Assembly (NCBI GenBank): GCA_905233565.1
Contig: CAJOCL010000003.1
Span: 194,588 to 228,795, forward strand
Direction of reading: 5' to 3'
DNA: 34,208 bases
Source of the DNA: an uncultured Synergistales bacterium
GTDB lineage: Bacteria; Synergistota; Synergistia; Synergistales; Aminobacteriaceae
The position numbers and the translations under genes are program-made. Of this stretch, positions 24,235-34,208 are shown piece after piece. The notes beneath the pieces are model-generated. The model saw only the letters and a list, made by a program, of their open reading frames with translations, was not told the DNA's origin and ran no database searches. Every line of letters begins with the position of its first letter. Within the stretch, counting starts at the first letter, position 1.

Positions 24235-25980
24235 GTGAGTATTTCTAAGAAAGTGCTTAGTCTTTTGTTGGCTGTACTTATGGTTGTAAATTTTGCTGTT
24301 TGCAGCTCAGCAGCAGAAGCTGACGGAACGCCCGCAGATCTCGTTGTTTATGGCAAGATTTTCACTTCCGAAGGCAATCAGATTGTCGAAGCGTTCGCGG
24401 TCAAAGACGGAAAGTACGTCTATGTTGGCGACAGGAAAGGCGCAGAAGCCTTTGTTGAAGCCGGCAAGACCGAAGTTATTGATTTTACGGGGAAAGGTCT
24501 GGTTATGTCAGGCTGCGGAAACGGCCACGCACATTATCTGTCTGCTTTTGCCGTACAGTCATTCGGAACAATGATCGGCTTTGACGATACTGTGGAAAAG
24601 TTCATGACTGAAATCGTTCCCGCTACTGTCAAAAAAGCAAGGGAAACAGGGGCAAAAGCTGTATATGGAATGGGCTGGGAGTTCCAAACGTTTAAGGATA
24701 ATATGCCTACCCGCCAGCAACTTGATGCAATTTGCAGCGACATTCCCATGTTCTTCGCAGATGAGGAAAATCACAAAGCTCTGGTAAACAGCATTGCTCT
24801 GGTTAATGCAGGCATTATTAGTACGGACGGTACTGTTCTCAAAAAGGGCAATGACATACGCGGCGGCGAAATCGCTATGAGCTCAGACGGAACTCCTAAC
24901 GGTCTCTTGAAGGAACAGGCAGCAACTTATGTGCGTTCATTTCTCGACAATGAAGCTCTTTTTTCCGTTGACATGGCAAAAGCAAGCCTTGAAAAAATTC
25001 AGGAGCTTATACTGTCAGAGGGTTACACGATGTATCTCGACGGCTACTCATCATACTTCTTTAACGATACTTACTATCAGGCCGCCCATCAATTGGACGA
25101 GGCGGGCAAACTGCACTTCATTTTAGGCTTCAGCTACGAAATTGACAGCTGGATGGATGTCGATGCAGTTTTGGAGAAGGCTGTCGCCGCTAAGAAATTT
25201 GCTTCCCCTAAGATAAAACCGTACTGGATTAAGCTGTTCATGGACGGCACTGTTGAAAGCGGTACGGGCTTTATTGAACCTGTATATCCTGACGGTCATC
25301 AGGGAATCGTCAACTGGACAGAAGAGGAACTCACAGAGATGACGAAGAAAGCCAATGAGAACGGACTAATCATGCACATACATGCACTGGGCAACAAGGG
25401 CGTTAACCGCGTTGTCAACGCATACATAAACGGCGGAAAGCCTGAAATGCGCAATACGATCGTACATATCCGTAACGTCATTGAGCCTGATTATAAGCGT
25501 ATGGCAGATAATAATATTTATGTTACCTCAGGTATGCTTTGGCACCACAATACTAATGAAACAGCTGAGGAACTTAAAACTACGCTCCCTGCAAACATGG
25601 CGGACAAAGGTTATCCCATGAAATCATTTTTTGATAACGGTATCACCGTGTCATTTCACACGGATTACCCTGCATTGAGCAACAGTCCTGATGATCCTTT
25701 CGGAGTTATTGAAATTGCTTTGACAGGTGTTTATCATCGGGAGAATGGGAATCCCTGGTGGCCCGAAGAACTCGTAACACGCGAGCAGGCACTCACTGCC
25801 ATGACCATTAACTGCGCAAAGCAAATGTTCATTGAAGATGAGCGGGGCAGCATCAAAACAGGTAAATATGCGGATTTCTTACTCGTTGACAAGGACATAT
25901 TAACCTGCCCGGTTACAGAGATTCACAATGCAAAGCCCGAAGCAACTTACTTTGAGGGCAAAAAGATTTTCAGCAGGTAG
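24235..25980 (+). CDS. Secreted amidohydrolase (Amidohydrolase_3/YtcJ-like)
   Basis: A 581-residue metal-dependent hydrolase of the amidohydrolase_3 branch. Residues 1-27 are a Sec signal peptide (basic SKK, hydrophobic core, SSAAEA cleavage region), so the product is exported; the cysteine is not in a good lipobox. After a small beta-domain (DLVVYGKIFT) the barrel shows the metal motif HAH (98-100), Lys333 (IKLFMDGT), HIH (381-383), His411 and Asp477 (HTDYP), then EERGSIKTGKYADFLLVD-like closing strands. Such enzymes cleave amide, ester or related bonds in small molecules; the substrate is unknown. The start is GTG at 24235 with AAGGAGGA upstream. It is a close paralogue of the amidohydrolase half of the fused gene at 30346, with stretches identical in DNA. 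A terminator follows. Confidence 0.9.
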   Translation: MSISKKVLSLLLAVLMVVNFAVCSSAAEADGTPADLVVYGKIFTSEGNQIVEAFAVKDGKYVYVGDRKGAEAFVEAGKTEVIDFTGKGLVMSGCGNGHAHYLSAFAVQSFGTMIGFDDTVEKFMTEIVPATVKKARETGAKAVYGMGWEFQTFKDNMPTRQQLDAICSDIPMFFADEENHKALVNSIALVNAGIISTDGTVLKKGNDIRGGEIAMSSDGTPNGLLKEQAATYVRSFLDNEALFSVDMAKASLEKIQELILSEGYTMYLDGYSSYFFNDTYYQAAHQLDEAGKLHFILGFSYEIDSWMDVDAVLEKAVAAKKFASPKIKPYWIKLFMDGTVESGTGFIEPVYPDGHQGIVNWTEEELTEMTKKANENGLIMHIHALGNKGVNRVVNAYINGGKPEMRNTIVHIRNVIEPDYKRMADNNIYVTSGMLWHHNTNETAEELKTTLPANMADKGYPMKSFFDNGITVSFHTDYPALSNSPDDPFGVIEIALTGVYHRENGNPWWPEELVTREQALTAMTINCAKQMFIEDERGSIKTGKYADFLLVDKDILTCPVTEIHNAKPEATYFEGKKIFSR

Positions 25981-27383: not shown

Positions 27384-29138
27384 TTGGAACTTAAAAGTAA
27401 TAATATTTTGAAAAGCATTTTCAGGACAGCACTTGTTGCAATGATCGTTGCGGATCTAGCAGAAATAATTGCTGCTATGATTGATGGAATGCTGACAGGG
27501 CGGTTTCTTGGAGCAGAGTCAATAGCCGCTTTCGGAATAGCTAAACCTTTTTTCTCTATAACAGGCGTGTTAAGTGCTGTACTCTCGTTAGGTTCAATGA
27601 TATTAGCTTCTCATTTAATCGGAAAGGGAGACAGGAGAAAAACAAATCAGATATTTTCGCTTACATGTTTTTTAGGAATTACGTTATCAATCGGCTTTTC
27701 TTTTCTTGGAATTATGTTTGTAAATCAATTCGCCGCTGTTTTAGGTGCAAATGGAGAATTGTTCCCGATAGTCAGAAAATATCTTGCGGGACTGCTTTTA
27801 GGAGTTCCTGCAATCGTCATGGGCAATATATTAGTTGTTTTCATGCAGCTTGAAGGCAAATACAATAAAGTAAATTTAAGCGTCTTTGCAACGATTACAG
27901 TAAATTTAGGCGGTGATTTGTTTAATATTTTCTATTTGAACGGCGACATGTTCGGAATGGGACTTGCTACATCAGCAAGTTATTACGCGGCATTAGCTGT
28001 TTTGATATACGGCTTTGTAGCAAAGCATTCTATGTTTCAGTTTTCTTTCTCTGATATTAAATGGGAAATGCTGACAGAACTTATCAATAAAGGACTCCCA
28101 AAAGCTACCAGAAGAGTGTGCAATATTTTTCGTCCTGTAATTATCAATCATTTAGTATTAATGATTGGCGGAAGTCTTGCTATGTCCGCTATGTCTGTTC
28201 AACACAGTGTAGCGGAATTTCTTGAGCTGCTTGGAACTTGCTGCGGTGATGTTGTTGTTTTAATGTGCGGTGTTTTTTACGGTGAAGAGAATGAGGACGA
28301 GCTGTCAGAAACATTAATACTTTCGTTTAAGTACGTGTTGTTTGGGGTAACAGCAGTAACATTAATGAGCTTCTTCGGGGCGCACGGAATTGCGTCTTTC
28401 TATTTAGGAAATCAAATAAAGGCAGTAGAAACGGCAACACTATGTATTCAGTTTTATGCTCTTAAACTTCCGCTGCTGGCTTTTAACGAGATTTATATGA
28501 ATTATTTTCAGGCGATAGGAGATAACAAAAGTTCGCATTTGCTCTCAGTTCTTCACAGGCTGATTTATGTTGTTGCATCAGCGTTTGTTCTCGGGTATTT
28601 TTTTGGTATTGTAGGAATATGGGCGGCATTTCCTGTGAGTGAATTATTATTGACACTGACAATTATAATAATGGCAGCAATTCATGAAAAGCAATTTCCA
28701 CGAACTATTCGGCAAATGTTATTTCTTCCTGAAGGTTTCGGGATTGATTCTAAGTATCGGTTCAGAAGCCAGATATTAACAAAAGAAGATGTGTTAAATG
28801 CCTCAGAACGCGCTTATAATTTTTGCTCTGAAAATGGAGTGAGTAAAAAGCAAGCGTTATACGTATCTTTATGTATAGAAGAACTTGGAATGAATGTTGC
28901 AAACTATGGTTTTTCAAAAAAGAATCAAAGTGCTGAAATTAATCTTGCGATTATAAAAGATGACTTAATACTTCGTTTCAGGGATAACGGAAAGACTTTT
29001 GATTTGACAAAATGGATCAGTATTTTTCACAGCGATGATCCTGCCGCGCATATTGGAATACGAATGCTGACAGGACTTGCAAAAGAAGTTACATACACAA
29101 ACTCGTTGAATACGAACAATGTGTTTATTCGATTGTAA
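27384..29138 (+). CDS. MATE-family transporter fused to a C-terminal RsbW-type ATPase domain
   Basis: A 584-residue two-part protein. Residues 1-450 are a MATE flippase with about 12 membrane segments (IIAAMIDGMLTGRFLGAESIAAFGIAKPF, MGNILVVFMQLEGKYN, FNEIYMNYFQAIGDN, VGIWAAFPVSELLL). Residues about 491-584 form a GHKL/HATPase_c_2 domain like anti-sigma factors: N-box EELGMNVANYGF (Asn504), DNGKTFD (534-540) and GIRMLTGLAKEV (558 on). The first part moves organic cations, lipids or drugs across the membrane using ion gradients; the second would bind ATP in the cytoplasm and might act as a kinase or partner-switch. The start is a TTG at 27384 with a distant GGAAGGG, so it is uncertain. Its RelA/SpoT-type neighbour begins 27 bp later. 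The DNA looks more AT-rich than the flanks. Confidence 0.85.
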   Translation: MELKSNNILKSIFRTALVAMIVADLAEIIAAMIDGMLTGRFLGAESIAAFGIAKPFFSITGVLSAVLSLGSMILASHLIGKGDRRKTNQIFSLTCFLGITLSIGFSFLGIMFVNQFAAVLGANGELFPIVRKYLAGLLLGVPAIVMGNILVVFMQLEGKYNKVNLSVFATITVNLGGDLFNIFYLNGDMFGMGLATSASYYAALAVLIYGFVAKHSMFQFSFSDIKWEMLTELINKGLPKATRRVCNIFRPVIINHLVLMIGGSLAMSAMSVQHSVAEFLELLGTCCGDVVVLMCGVFYGEENEDELSETLILSFKYVLFGVTAVTLMSFFGAHGIASFYLGNQIKAVETATLCIQFYALKLPLLAFNEIYMNYFQAIGDNKSSHLLSVLHRLIYVVASAFVLGYFFGIVGIWAAFPVSELLLTLTIIIMAAIHEKQFPRTIRQMLFLPEGFGIDSKYRFRSQILTKEDVLNASERAYNFCSENGVSKKQALYVSLCIEELGMNVANYGFSKKNQSAEINLAIIKDDLILRFRDNGKTFDLTKWISIFHSDDPAAHIGIRMLTGLAKEVTYTNSLNTNNVFIRL

Positions 29139-29165
29139 ACTAAAAAATGAGAAAGAAGGTTGATA

Positions 29166-30224
29166 ATGAAAGAAACAGATATTGAAATACAAGCCTTAAT
29201 TGAGAGGTATAAACACTTAGAAAAATTTGTCAGCGAACGTCTGCATAATATTTTTGCGGACAGCGGTTTTATGATACACGTTACACACCGCATAAAAACA
29301 ATAGACTCCATTAAAGGAAAACTTGAAAGAAAGCCCAATGAATATAGCAGCATTTACGAAATTTACGATATACTCGGCTTCCGTGTTATTTGCTATATGT
29401 CACCTGATGTAGATTTAGCAGCTAAATTAATTGCTGATAATTTCCGTGTTGATTGGAACAGATCAAAGGACAAAAGAAAAATTATTGATGCAAGGTCATT
29501 CGGTTATCTTGCCCTTCACTATGTATGTGCGCTTCCTGAAAATGAAAGTGAATTAAGCGATTTATGGTTTGAAATTCAGATTAAAACAATTCTTCAGCAT
29601 TGTTGGGCCGAAATAGAGCATGATCTGGGCTACAAATTAGAATTTGAAGTTCCAAGAGACATCAGAAGGAGCTTCTCAAAAGCAGCGAGTTTGCTTGAGA
29701 CAGCAGATGATATTTTTGTTTACATCAGAAAAAGTCTGAATGAATACAGAATCAAGATAAAACAAGATATTGAGAACGATAAACTTGACGAATTGTTCTT
29801 TGACAAAATAACTCTTGCTGAATTTACTTCCCACAACATTGCTTACCGAAATTTATTAAACGAAATAGCAGCTGTAACAAACGCACGGATATTAGAAGGA
29901 AACTCAGAAAGTCAGCTTCCATTAATTAATTTTCTGGAAATCCGCTCTTTCAGAGATATGGTAAATCTTATCAATGAAGAGCATGATTTAGCATTAAAGC
30001 TGGCACAAGAGTTATTGCAGGATTCAGAAATTGATGAGCTCGCTTCTACGGCAGCATATCATTTTCTTTTCAGAGCAAGACTTATCAGCGGCAGTTACAG
30101 CAGAGAAAAAATACGTGAATTTTTCATGCTTACTACGAAAGATGAAAAACTCATAGAGAACAATACGAAGAAAATTATAGATATGCGCAAGGAACTCTTA
30201 GGATTACCTGAGAGCAACAGTTAA
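29166..30224 (+). CDS. RelA/SpoT-domain (p)ppGpp synthetase-like protein
   Basis: A 352-residue protein. Residues about 20-160 are a RelA/SpoT synthetase domain: Arg42-x-Lys44 in HRIKTIDSIKGK, EIYDILGFRVICY (Asp68), SKDKR, FGYLALHYV, and WFEIQIKTILQHCWAEIEHDLGYK (Glu136, Gln138, Trp147, Glu149, His152). The catalytic pattern appears intact, and there is no HD hydrolase domain, so it resembles a small alarmone synthetase. Residues 165-352 are helical and unlike the ACT/TGS regions of long Rel proteins. The ATG at 29166 is preferred to a TTG six bases earlier and has AAGAAGG upstream. It is 27 bp after the MATE-ATPase gene, suggesting a joint transcript. It could be a housekeeping synthetase, a toxic (toxSAS/CapRel-like) one, or a pyrophosphokinase using another acceptor. 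Confidence 0.85.
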   Translation: MKETDIEIQALIERYKHLEKFVSERLHNIFADSGFMIHVTHRIKTIDSIKGKLERKPNEYSSIYEIYDILGFRVICYMSPDVDLAAKLIADNFRVDWNRSKDKRKIIDARSFGYLALHYVCALPENESELSDLWFEIQIKTILQHCWAEIEHDLGYKLEFEVPRDIRRSFSKAASLLETADDIFVYIRKSLNEYRIKIKQDIENDKLDELFFDKITLAEFTSHNIAYRNLLNEIAAVTNARILEGNSESQLPLINFLEIRSFRDMVNLINEEHDLALKLAQELLQDSEIDELASTAAYHFLFRARLISGSYSREKIREFFMLTTKDEKLIENNTKKIIDMRKELLGLPESNS

Positions 30225-30345
30225 GCAAAAAACATTTTTCATATTAATCATCTGCCTTAAAGAAAGATTGTCGATTGGGAGATAACCTATTTTTCTGATA
30301 AAATAAATTATATCTGAATAAGTTCACAGAAAGGATTATGTGCGG
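30225..30345 (+). promoter_or_regulatory. Intergenic region with probable promoter for the fused lipoprotein gene
   Basis: A 121-bp AT-rich gap. TTGGGA followed after 18 bases by TAAAAT is a passable promoter. The last part, reading CACAGAAAGGAT, matches the ribosome-site region before the stand-alone esterase gene (ACAGAAAGGAT, 33683-33693), evidence that the two leaders are homologous. Confidence 0.4.
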
Positions 30346-33300
30346 ATGAAAAAGAAAGTTTTAGCATTAGCAGTGACCTGTGTTATGGTTTTGTGTCTTA
30401 CGGCCTGCGTCAGTTCAGCAGCAGAGACTGACGGAACGCCCGCCGATCTCGTTGTTTACGGTAAGATTTTCACTTCCGAAGGCAATCAGATTGTCGAAGC
30501 GTTCGCGGTTAAAGACGGCAAGTACGTCTATGTTGGCGACAGGAAAGGTGCAGAAGCCTTTGTTGAGAAGGGCAAGACTGAGGTTGTCGACTATACCGGG
30601 AAAGGTCTCGTTATGCCAGGCTGCGGAAACGGGCACGCCCATTATATGCTGGGTTATGCTCTCAAAACGATAGGCACAACCATAGAATATGAGGATAATG
30701 CGGAAAAGTTTATGAATGAAATCCTTCCTGCTGCGGTCAAAAAGGCAAGGGAGACGGGAGCAAAGGCTGTATTTGGTCAGGGCTGGAATCTCATGCACTT
30801 TGGGGATCATATACCTACACGTCAGGAACTTGATGCCGTATGCAGTGATATTCCCATGTACTTTTTGGACGATGAATGCCATAAGGCTCTGACTAACACG
30901 CTTATGCTTGTTAAAGCAGGCATTATGAGCGCAGACGGTACGCCGCTCATGACAGAAATACGCGGAGGCGAGATTCAAACAGACGCTAACGGCATTCCTA
31001 CAGGTTTCTTGTCGGAACAGGCTCAAACTTACGTACGTTCATTCTTAGACGACATTTATACTCTCGACATGGCCAAAGCTAACCTGGCAGACATCGAGAA
31101 GCATATGTTGTCAGAAGGTTACACGATGTACACTGAGGGCTGGGGTAACTATTTCGTCAACACTAATTACTATGAGGCTCTTCAGCAATTAGACAAGGCC
31201 GGCAAACTGCACATTGTTGTTGGTCTGCCCTATGAGTTTGAAAGCTGGATGAATGTTGATGAGGCTCTTGCAAGAGCAGTTGACGCTAAGAAATTTGCTT
31301 CAGCACGCGTAATGCCGAGATGGATCAAGCTCCTCATGGACGGCACTGTTGAAAGCGGCACGGGATTTGTTGATCCGCTGTATCCTGACGGTCATCAGGG
31401 TATCCCCAACTGGACGGAAGAAGAAATTACGGACATAACGCGAAAAGCTAACGCAAACGGTTTGACTATGCACATACATGCTTTAGGCAACAAGGCCGTC
31501 AATTGTGTTGTCAGTGCCTTCGTCAACGGAGGTCAAGACGAAATGCGCAATACACTGGTGCATGTCCGCAACGTCAACCCGGAAGATTACAAGCGCATGA
31601 CAGACAATAATATTTATGTCAGCTCGGGCGTAACTTGGCATCATGGCCCTGCCGGAATGGCTGAGTATTTGCGTGAACATAAATCAACCCCTGTAGGCCA
31701 AGAAGACGAATCTTATCCCTTCAAGTCATTTTTCGATAACGGTATCCCCGTGTCAATACACTCAGATTATCCGGCATTGAGCGGAAGCCCTGATGATCCG
31801 TTCGGAATTATGGAGATTGCTGTTACTGGTGTACTTCACTCTGAGAACGGGGCTGCTTGGTGGCCTGAAGAACTCGTTACCCGTGAACAGGCTCTCACGG
31901 CCATGACTATCGGCTGCGCAAGGCAGATGTTCATTGAAGATGAAAGAGGCAGTATCAAGCCCGGTAAATATGCAGATTTCCTTCTCTTGAATAAAGACGT
32001 TCTGACCTGCCCGGTTATGGAGATTCACACTGTCAAGCCTGAAGCTACATACTTTGAGGGGGAAAAGGTCTTCACTGCTCCGGATTCTGACAAAACACTG
32101 AATGAGGCTAAAGAGGAACTCAGAGCGCAGTACGGTGAGAACAAGAAGATTACAGACGGCAATTATGACAAGTCCTTAGCAGTCAAGTGCATTAACGGTA
32201 CATTTGTCGGCAAAAAGACTGATGATGTCATAGCCTACAAAGGTATTCCGTTTGTCGGTAAACAGCCTGTAGGAAATCTTCGCTGGAAAGCTCCCGTTGA
32301 TGTCGTCCCTGATAATGGCGTATACGAGGCGTATTACAACGGGAAAACTCCTATACAGGGTGAAGACATATATGAAACTGCTTCCCTTTACGTTCAGGGC
32401 GAAGACTGCCTGTATTTGAACATCTGGAAAGCTGATGAAGCCTCTACAGAGAAAAAGCCTGTAATGGTATGGATACACGGCGGAGCTTATGAGATGGGCG
32501 GAACGGCTGACCCTACGTATGAGTTACATAACTTCGTCAAGGAAAATCCTGATGTAATCGCTGTAAGTATCGCGTACAGAGTCGGCGTGTTCGGTTTCTT
32601 CCACTTGTCCCATCTTCCTGACGGCAAGGACTATCCTGACGCTCAGAACTTGGGCCTCATGGATCAGATAATGGCGTTGAAATGGGTACATGAGAACATT
32701 GCGAGCTTCGGCGGGGATCCTGACAATGTTACAATCTTCGGCGAATCCGCAGGCGGCGGCAGTGTCAGCCAGCTTCCATTAATCAAAGGCTCTCACAAGT
32801 ATTTCAAGAAGGTCATTGCTCAGAGCGGCGGAATCGTTTTCACGAGGTCGAAAGAACAGGCTATCGAGTGTACGAATGAATTGATGGAGATACTCGGCTG
32901 TAAAACAGTCGCTGATCTCCAGAAAGTAGATGTCCGTAAGTTTGTGAAGGAAGCAGCGGTACTCGAATTGCGCGTATTGCCGGAACGGGACGGAAATTAT
33001 CTGCCCCTAGACCCGTATGAAGCGTATGCAGACGGCGCGGCAAAGGATATAATTTTCATGCAGGGCTGCAACAAAGACGAGATGAACTACTTTATGGTCT
33101 CAATTGGCGGAATAGAGCCTTTCATGGATTTCTACGGTAAACGCTGGGCGAAAAATATCACACAGCTTACGGACGAGGAAAAAGTGCTTGTTGAGAGCTT
33201 CTGCAAGGACATCAAGGGAGATATTTACGAACCGCTTTGCAGACTGTACGATCAAATCTGGTTTATCGCGCCGCTGTTCAGGATGTCTGAGAACCAGACC

Positions 33301-33675
33301 AAAGCAGGCGGAAAATCCTACACCTATTTATTCACGGTTGAATCCTCCGTGCCTCTTATGAAGAGCGGACATGCTGTGGAGCTTGCGTCAGTATTAAATC
33401 ACCCGGAAAGCACCTTAGAGACGGGAAGAGCATTTGATGAGACGTTCTCGAAGACTATGCGTAAGATGTGGGTGCAGTTCGCCAAAACCGGCAACCCTTC
33501 ACTCAGCGCGGACATTTCCCCTGACGGCAAGGCACATAATTGGCCTCTCTACAACTTGAAGGACAAGGAAATTATGGTCTTCGATGAGTTCAACATTCAC
33601 CCGGAAAAAGAGTCGAAGTTAAAAATTCTTGATTGGGAGAGATGCTATTTCCTGACTAATTATTACTGCATGTAA
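30346..33675 (+). CDS. Giant lipoprotein: amidohydrolase fused to type-B carboxylesterase
   Basis: A 1109-residue two-enzyme protein. Residues 1-21 are a lipoprotein signal with lipobox LTAC. Residues about 24-580 are an amidohydrolase_3 module with HAH (97-99), a Lys in IKLLMDGT and HIH, closely matching the gene at 24235. Residues 582-1109 are a carboxylesterase type B: oxyanion loop HGG (711-713), GESAGG with Ser801, Glu912 (GCNKDEM) and His1009 (SGHAVEL), forming a full triad. Both catalytic sets look intact. The ATG at 30346 is chosen over a GTG six bases earlier because its spacing from AAAGGA equals that of the stand-alone esterase gene. The product should be a membrane-anchored enzyme hydrolysing an amide/cyclic bond and an ester of an unknown compound. 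The mosaic origin is described in the findings. Confidence 0.9.
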   Translation: MKKKVLALAVTCVMVLCLTACVSSAAETDGTPADLVVYGKIFTSEGNQIVEAFAVKDGKYVYVGDRKGAEAFVEKGKTEVVDYTGKGLVMPGCGNGHAHYMLGYALKTIGTTIEYEDNAEKFMNEILPAAVKKARETGAKAVFGQGWNLMHFGDHIPTRQELDAVCSDIPMYFLDDECHKALTNTLMLVKAGIMSADGTPLMTEIRGGEIQTDANGIPTGFLSEQAQTYVRSFLDDIYTLDMAKANLADIEKHMLSEGYTMYTEGWGNYFVNTNYYEALQQLDKAGKLHIVVGLPYEFESWMNVDEALARAVDAKKFASARVMPRWIKLLMDGTVESGTGFVDPLYPDGHQGIPNWTEEEITDITRKANANGLTMHIHALGNKAVNCVVSAFVNGGQDEMRNTLVHVRNVNPEDYKRMTDNNIYVSSGVTWHHGPAGMAEYLREHKSTPVGQEDESYPFKSFFDNGIPVSIHSDYPALSGSPDDPFGIMEIAVTGVLHSENGAAWWPEELVTREQALTAMTIGCARQMFIEDERGSIKPGKYADFLLLNKDVLTCPVMEIHTVKPEATYFEGEKVFTAPDSDKTLNEAKEELRAQYGENKKITDGNYDKSLAVKCINGTFVGKKTDDVIAYKGIPFVGKQPVGNLRWKAPVDVVPDNGVYEAYYNGKTPIQGEDIYETASLYVQGEDCLYLNIWKADEASTEKKPVMVWIHGGAYEMGGTADPTYELHNFVKENPDVIAVSIAYRVGVFGFFHLSHLPDGKDYPDAQNLGLMDQIMALKWVHENIASFGGDPDNVTIFGESAGGGSVSQLPLIKGSHKYFKKVIAQSGGIVFTRSKEQAIECTNELMEILGCKTVADLQKVDVRKFVKEAAVLELRVLPERDGNYLPLDPYEAYADGAAKDIIFMQGCNKDEMNYFMVSIGGIEPFMDFYGKRWAKNITQLTDEEKVLVESFCKDIKGDIYEPLCRLYDQIWFIAPLFRMSENQTKAGGKSYTYLFTVESSVPLMKSGHAVELASVLNHPESTLETGRAFDETFSKTMRKMWVQFAKTGNPSLSADISPDGKAHNWPLYNLKDKEIMVFDEFNIHPEKESKLKILDWERCYFLTNYYCM

Positions 33676-33702
33676 TAAGTTTACAGAAAGGATGATACAA
33701 AA

Positions 33703-34208
33703 ATGAAGAAGAAAATTTTAGCGTTGGCAACACTCTGGGTTATGGTCTTCAGTCTGACGGCCTGCAGCAATGGTTCAGCTAAAGCAGCTGACAAAACACT
33801 GAGCGAGATTAAAGAGGAAATGAGCGCTTTGTACGGCGAGAACAAACCAATCACAGACGGCAATTATGACAAGTCGCTGGCGGTCAAGTGTATCAATGGT
33901 ACATTTGTCGGCAAAAAGAGAGATGGTGTCATAGCCTACAAAGGCATTCCGTTTGTCGGTAAACAGCCTGTAGGCGAACTCCGCTGGAAAGCTCCTGTTG
34001 ACGTTGTTCCTGATGACGGAGTTTATGAGGCATACTATAACGGCAAAACCCCATGCCAGGTGGATTATGATGCGCAAATTGCTTCAGTTTACGTTAGAGG
34101 GGAGGACTGCCTTTATCTTAACGTCTGGAAAGCTGATGACGGCAGGACAAATAAGCCTGTAATGGTATGGATTCACGGCGGAGCTTTTACAGTCGGAGGG
34201 ACGGTTGA
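33703..34208 (+). CDS. Lipoprotein type-B carboxylesterase (3' end beyond the window)
   Basis: The first 168 residues of a carboxylesterase. A lipoprotein signal with LTAC lipobox (MKKKILALATLWVMVFSLTAC) leads into DKTLSEIKEE, then TFVGKKRDGVIAYKGIPFVG, LRWKAP, GEDCLYLNVWKA and the oxyanion loop HGGAFTVGG; the nucleophile elbow lies past the window edge. It is a paralogue of residues 582 onward of the preceding giant protein, with near-identical leader, ribosome site and N-terminal esterase DNA. It follows that gene by 27 bp, so the two are probably cotranscribed. The missing end prevents judging whether it is intact. Confidence 0.85.
   Translation, partial: MKKKILALATLWVMVFSLTACSNGSAKAADKTLSEIKEEMSALYGENKPITDGNYDKSLAVKCINGTFVGKKRDGVIAYKGIPFVGKQPVGELRWKAPVDVVPDDGVYEAYYNGKTPCQVDYDAQIASVYVRGEDCLYLNVWKADDGRTNKPVMVWIHGGAFTVGGTV

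Follow-up and report, generated by a model that had tools for sequence, protein, structure and literature searches.

Among solved structures, those nearest to the amidohydrolase family considered here are 3ICJ and 3IGH (PF07969), both of which are annotated as 'uncharacterized'. These archaeal proteins share their fold and metal-ligand motifs with one half of the gene product described below, but they are stand-alone proteins, whereas the amidohydrolase half is predicted to be secreted and is fused to an esterase. The other half has the fold and the Ser-Glu-His triad of p-nitrobenzyl esterase (1QE3/1C7I), of Est55 (2OGS) and of a Thermaerobacter esterase active on polyurethane (8YMA/8WDM), and is about 30% identical to these enzymes. 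However, each of these comprises a single domain, whereas the rumen esterase family examined here is fused and is variable at E-domain positions 76-150 and 301-450. DUF3089, or lipolytic family XV, includes the characterised esterase Est10 from the bovine rumen (PMC4431682), and was found again among rumen lipase/esterase clones (PMC4464377). Although Est10 and a module of the gene cluster reported below belong to the same Pfam family, Est10 is a single-domain protein, whereas the cluster module is fused to amidohydrolase, carboxylesterase or further DUF3089 domains.

The subject of this study is a stretch of 34,208 nucleotides from an uncultured Synergistales bacterium (the window), which carries a gene that joins the first two of these enzyme types. 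Enzyme families are abbreviated as A (Amidohydro_3), E (type-B carboxylesterase), C (choloylglycine-hydrolase-like) and D (DUF3089/family XV esterase). The genomes compared are given G-numbers, with G000 denoting the window genome, loci are given L-numbers, and C3 and C16 are contigs of the window genome.

A single gene encodes an amidohydrolase and a carboxylesterase

Positions 30346-33675 of the forward strand form one uninterrupted ORF of 1109 amino acids on contig C3 (Table 1). A Pfam search assigns residues 80-576 of the product to Amidohydro_3 (PF07969, E = 1.5e-57) and residues 616-1081 to COesterase (PF00135, E = 2.1e-90). Both matches lie above the curated cut-offs (196.6 bits versus 29.7, and 304.6 bits versus 27, respectively), and the first covers profile positions 2-472 of 472. 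The A half is 68% identical to the product of the window's own stand-alone A gene, which falls in a different lineage in the A tree, and the E half shares 78% identity with the first 140 amino acids encoded by gene 33703, the next tandem esterase, which is incomplete because contig C3 ends there.

Table 1. Features of the fusion locus in the window.
Feature	Position	Strand	Basis
Stand-alone amidohydrolase (A), own A-type leader, GTG start	24235-25980	+	Pfam PF07969
Scar: 3' end of lost upstream esterase (KIVDWEITYF) and esterase-type intergenic DNA	30263-30339	+	BLASTN
Esterase-type signal/lipobox leader MKKKVLALAVTCVMVLCLTAC	30346-30408	+	DNA identity to leader of gene 33703
Amidohydrolase domain (PF07969)	30409-32073	+	Pfam, catalytic motifs, predicted fold
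Junction/linker TAPDSDKTL	32074-32100	+	A stop, spacer and E signal peptide absent
Type-B carboxylesterase domain (PF00135), oxyanion HGGA	32086-33672	+	Pfam, triad, predicted fold
Next tandem esterase (E), incomplete	33703-34206	+	Contig C3 ends inside

Family motifs were used to assign H97, H99, K328, H376/H378, H406 and D474 as candidate metal-binding and catalytic residues of the A half, and these positions (HxH, Lys, two further His and Asp) are invariant in an alignment of 34 A homologues. The triad of the E half, S801, E912 and H1009 (with GxSxG and the oxyanion motif HGGx), is invariant in an alignment of 35 E homologues. An earlier interpretation of this DNA that used its letters and ORFs only (the sequence-only reading) had proposed an intact two-enzyme fusion with both active sites kept. 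This proposal is borne out by the complete PF07969 and PF00135 domains in one ORF, with the catalytic residues present, and we infer that both halves are enzymatically active.

The predicted structure of the fusion (mean pLDDT 86, pTM 0.61) has pLDDT values of about 90 over most of both domains and of about 56-62 in the linker, with low confidence around residues 580-600. As modelled, the protein is two folded domains that are loosely linked. Fold comparisons match the A domain model with 3ICJ/3IGH and the E domain model with 8YMA/8WDM, 2OGS and 1C7I. The E ends and the nucleophile region are far better conserved between fusions than segments 76-150 and 301-450, which vary most (down to about 40% identity). 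Such variable segments would fit a set of tandem copies with altered substrate range.

Full-length orthologues with 72-89% identity are present in G004, G010, G016, G026, G030 and G032, and the fusion is confined to this one rumen genus among 188 Synergistota genomes. The open-access literature on amidohydrolase/carboxylesterase fusions, on Amidohydro_3 plus COesterase and on rumen Synergistota esterases yielded no description of this architecture, which agrees with the earlier view that it is unusual. Carriage on mobile elements was considered and rejected: matches in plasmid records all span less than 80% of the query, and viral contigs yielded no relative. The sequence-only reading had also raised the concern that two genes might have been joined by an assembly error. 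The window contig does end inside the next esterase, and the fusion-bearing genomes are metagenome bins or drafts. However, six further genomes carry the full-length fusion, and in some of the seven assemblies it lies deep within long contigs (597 kb, 133 kb), so that an assembly or binning artefact is exceedingly improbable.

Leader and junctions of the fusion gene

The 63-bp leader DNA of the fusion shares 78% identity with that of gene 33703, compared with 51% for the leader of gene 24235 and 47-58% for the leaders of other fusions. Directly past the leader, identity is 50% to gene 33703 and 85% to gene 24235. BLASTN likewise aligns the 5' flank and leader with gene 33703 over 104 bp (E = 7e-14), then matches the fusion to gene 24235 across 1681 bp, and thereafter to esterase. 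Both the esterase-type leader and the switch from leader to amidohydrolase to esterase had been recognised in the sequence-only reading, and these comparisons confirm them. Alignments place the first breakpoint at about 30403-30425, a region in which A and E leaders have similar ends, and the second at 32074-32085, after ..YFEGEKVF of A (ending at 32073) and before the mature start of E, DKTLxEIKEEL. The previous estimates were near 30412 and 32089.

Stand-alone A proteins terminate in ..YFEGKKVF[S/A][R/K], and the fusions pass from ..YFEGxKVF into the mature E start DKTLxEIKAEL. Because ..YFEGxKVF runs straight into the mature E start, the stop codon of A, the spacer and the signal peptide of E have been lost. 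Linker length varies among the fusions. The G004 fusion is without the first 16 residues of E, the G026 fusion has its own linker, and those of G000, G010, G030, G016 and G032 have VF[TE]A followed by the E start at the same place. A candidate junction microhomology between the 3' end of A and the end of the E leader, TTCAGCAG, was rejected because the reading frame would be wrong.

Upstream of the gene, positions 30263-30339 are 74% identical to 33621-33696, and the 30 bp at 30263-30292 are 97% identical to esterase remnant DNA in G025, as determined by BLASTN. The window fusion itself begins with a signal peptide and a lipobox with Cys, as read from its sequence (MKKKVLALAVTCVMVLCLTAC), and in this strain it is probably secreted and lipid-anchored. 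The G030 orthologue lacks the lipobox Cys, and in others the motif is weak. Lipid anchoring is therefore a prediction for the window protein and not a conserved property of the fusion, and the outer-surface placement proposed in the sequence-only reading is a possibility.

A-type leaders are present in the fusions of G010, G016, G026, G030 and G032 and in related A genes of G002, G009, G018 and G025. Within the narrow A lineage of the fusion, nine of the ten other A sequences carry this type, and the remaining one (G004) begins with a DUF3089 domain; the esterase-type leader occurs among the fusions in the window protein only. In the window genome, contig C16 bears an E-D gene that also has an A-type leader. 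The A-type motif tested is found in this genome at the stand-alone A gene and the E-D gene only, and the notion that the leader is generic and common to many genes of the genome was rejected. This restricted distribution suggests that leaders have been exchanged within the cluster between its A and E genes. Such exchange would account for the pattern described in the sequence-only reading without insertion of A into E.

Relationships of the two halves

In the phylogenetic trees, the A half and the E half of the window fusion are each sister to the corresponding halves of the G010 and G030 proteins, which are themselves already fused. In the A tree, the AU test does not reject (p = 0.42) a single clade that unites the seven fusions with G009, in which A is joined to a pair of DUF3089 domains, and with G002, whose A gene is truncated at the edge of its contig; a clade of the seven fusions alone is mildly rejected (AU p = 0.02). 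The stand-alone A genes of G018 and G025 lie near the fused lineage. The E halves are distributed over four esterase clades, namely {G000, G010, G030}, {G032}, {G016} and {G026, G004}. A single clade is rejected both for all seven E halves (AU p = 1.5e-6) and for the five without G026 and G004 (AU p = 3.8e-5). The E tree was built from 122 rows with a quick method, and the AU tests used a simpler model, with 38 rows for E.

These placements argue against the earlier proposal that an amidohydrolase was placed between the signal and catalytic domain of a local esterase in the window lineage. The leader, the spacer and the upstream 3' scar are all of esterase type, and the switch points are sharp, which favours such an insertion. 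However, both halves are orthologous to those of already fused proteins in G010 and G030, and the remaining members of the A lineage carry non-esterase leaders, mostly of A type. We consider this insertion very unlikely. Because the halves are sister to already fused proteins and the other leaders of the lineage are not of esterase type, the esterase-type leader of the window fusion would most simply be a later swap in its lineage.

Since the A halves form nearly one lineage and the E halves fall into four clades, either the E partner has been replaced or fusion has recurred. If fusion recurred, one A lineage would have been joined to different esterase neighbours on at least four occasions, and on one occasion to a pair of DUF3089 domains. 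Recurrent fusion accounts for the E tree no less well than replacement of the partner does, and it fits the differing junction lengths (the shortened E half of G004, the distinct linker of G026) and the near-lineage stand-alone A genes of G018 and G025. Yet five fusions share VF[TE]A and the same E start, the A halves come close to a single clade, and the tandem esterases adjoining the fusion would be ideal replacement material. Repeated independent fusion is quite possible, although we rate it somewhat short of an even chance.

We consider it likely, taking the reading as a whole, that this bifunctional hydrolase arose by deletion fusions in an A/E/C/D gene cluster, followed by replacement of the E half and the leader. 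Deletions between neighbouring genes would repeatedly have removed a stop codon, spacer and downstream signal peptide, such that mature domains were joined end to end. Recombination with tandem esterase copies would then most likely have replaced the E half and, in the window lineage, the leader as well, perhaps by gene conversion or unequal crossing-over. The product would be a secreted protein in which a short linker connects a metal-dependent Amidohydro_3 enzyme with a serine type-B carboxylesterase, and its gene would lie in a cluster that encodes secreted hydrolases of four families (A, E, C and D) in rumen Synergistota.

Other fusions in the hydrolase cluster

A scan with one query each for A, E, C and D revealed eight fused architectures among the cluster genes: A-E, D-A-E, D-A, A-D-D, E-D, C-E, D-D and D-D-D. 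Five of these (D-A-E, A-D-D, D-A, C-E and E-D) are confirmed by Pfam. The C family matches choloylglycine hydrolases weakly. Gene order in the clusters with an A-E fusion is A, A-E, E, E, E, C, D in G030; A-E, E, E, E, C, D in G010; broken A, A-E, E, shortened E, E, C, D in G032; A-E, C, D-D in G016; and A, C, A-E, E, D-D-D in G026. The remaining clusters are D-A-E, E in G004; A-D-D in G009; A, C, D in G019; D-A adjoining C in G001; and C-E, A in G013. The D-D fusion is present in G034 as well.

The window genome has A, three unrelated genes, A-E, and E to the contig end, with C and E-D on contig C16. The latter locus (L003:66-4083), near the contig start, consists of a choloylglycine-hydrolase-like gene and then an esterase-DUF3089 fusion, and these genes may continue the cluster that is cut at the end of the window. 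Related esterases, some of them broken, form tandem arrays of three to six copies in G025 (L044:3673-13741) and in Selenomonas (L071/L076). The Selenomonas copies are up to 85-90% identical to Synergistota copies, which suggests transfer between phyla.

Adjacent A and E genes in other phyla

The fetched loci include 48 pairs of same-strand A and E neighbours within 300 bp, from five phyla, in a sample that is biased because the search favours records with both domains. In 19 of the 48 pairs, both the A and the E are close (Synergistota, Bacteroidota and one further bin). One partner in each of the remaining pairs is a more distant family member, usually the amidohydrolase. In taxa other than Bacteroidota, Synergistota and Selenomonadales, the A neighbour is a more distantly related Amidohydro_3.

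First matches had suggested that the fusion itself is spread over rumen phyla, but this was rejected when ORF parsing gave separate adjacent ORFs outside Synergistota. The best matches in Prevotella, Bacteroidaceae, Selenomonadaceae, Lachnospiraceae/Oribacterium, Desulfovibrio and Actinomycetota are separate genes, and the fetched loci contain no A-E fusion outside Synergistota. The pairs of rumen Prevotella, Selenomonadaceae, Oribacterium, Desulfovibrio and Atopobiaceae resemble the fusion in combining Amidohydro_3 with the same E family; both genes share one strand, and the gap between them is usually about 110 bp or smaller. Unlike the Synergistota fusion, they are separate ORFs.

Possible substrates and significance

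A fusion of two genes is good evidence that their products cooperate. The repeated fusion of the same four kinds of hydrolase gene suggests that these enzymes share one kind of substrate. Because two ester-cleaving families (E and D) and two presumed amide-cleaving families (A and C) occur in mixed fusions, a substrate with both bonds may be guessed, on which the A/E/C/D enzymes could act together; a shared substrate bearing ester and amide bonds is the most economical guess. Acylated amino lipids and plant acyl conjugates are possible substrates with ester- and amide-linked groups. Sequential attack on one compound by both halves is plausible, and is helped by the adjacency of A and E genes in other phyla.

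Alternatively, the gene could be an ordinary fusion of neighbours that lacks biochemical coupling and is tolerated because both partners are secreted scavenging enzymes. The partners are indeed cluster neighbours, and the linker looks loose in the predicted structure. However, the frame and both active sites have been kept across large divergence in seven genomes, and A and E are paired across phyla. We regard an uncoupled fusion as rather unlikely, and joint action on a common substrate is the reading followed here. Evenly balanced, in our judgement, is the broader interpretation that the cluster is a fusion hot spot, where four unrelated or distantly related secreted families have been re-joined, with leaders and partners swapped, around a common ester/amide substrate class, and that the A/E set has spread over five rumen phyla, probably by gene transfer.

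The eight fusions, all assembled from the same set of four hydrolase families, point to a rumen degradation route that has gone unrecognised, and they provide a hint of function for the uncharacterised amidohydrolase group and for DUF3089. They also form a natural series, in which one enzyme has different partners, that is useful for understanding how bifunctional enzymes arise and possibly of interest for engineering enzymes in which ester cleavage and amide cleavage are linked.

Other domain combinations

Other COesterases of the same genus (L022, L025 and L028) carry N-terminal leucine-rich repeats (LRR_4). The COesterases at L043:3708-5675, L093, L094 and L126 have a common N-terminal stretch of about 137 amino acids that starts with MKKLFTIDDF and occurs in Synergistota, Actinomycetota and Bacillota; this stretch had no Pfam match of its own in the single protein tested. 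Within the window, positions 27384-29138 encode a MATE-type transporter domain (PF01554) and a C-terminal HATPase_c_2 domain in one ORF, an unusual transporter/ATPase-kinase-like fusion, which is followed by a gene for a RelA/SpoT-domain protein at 29160-30224.
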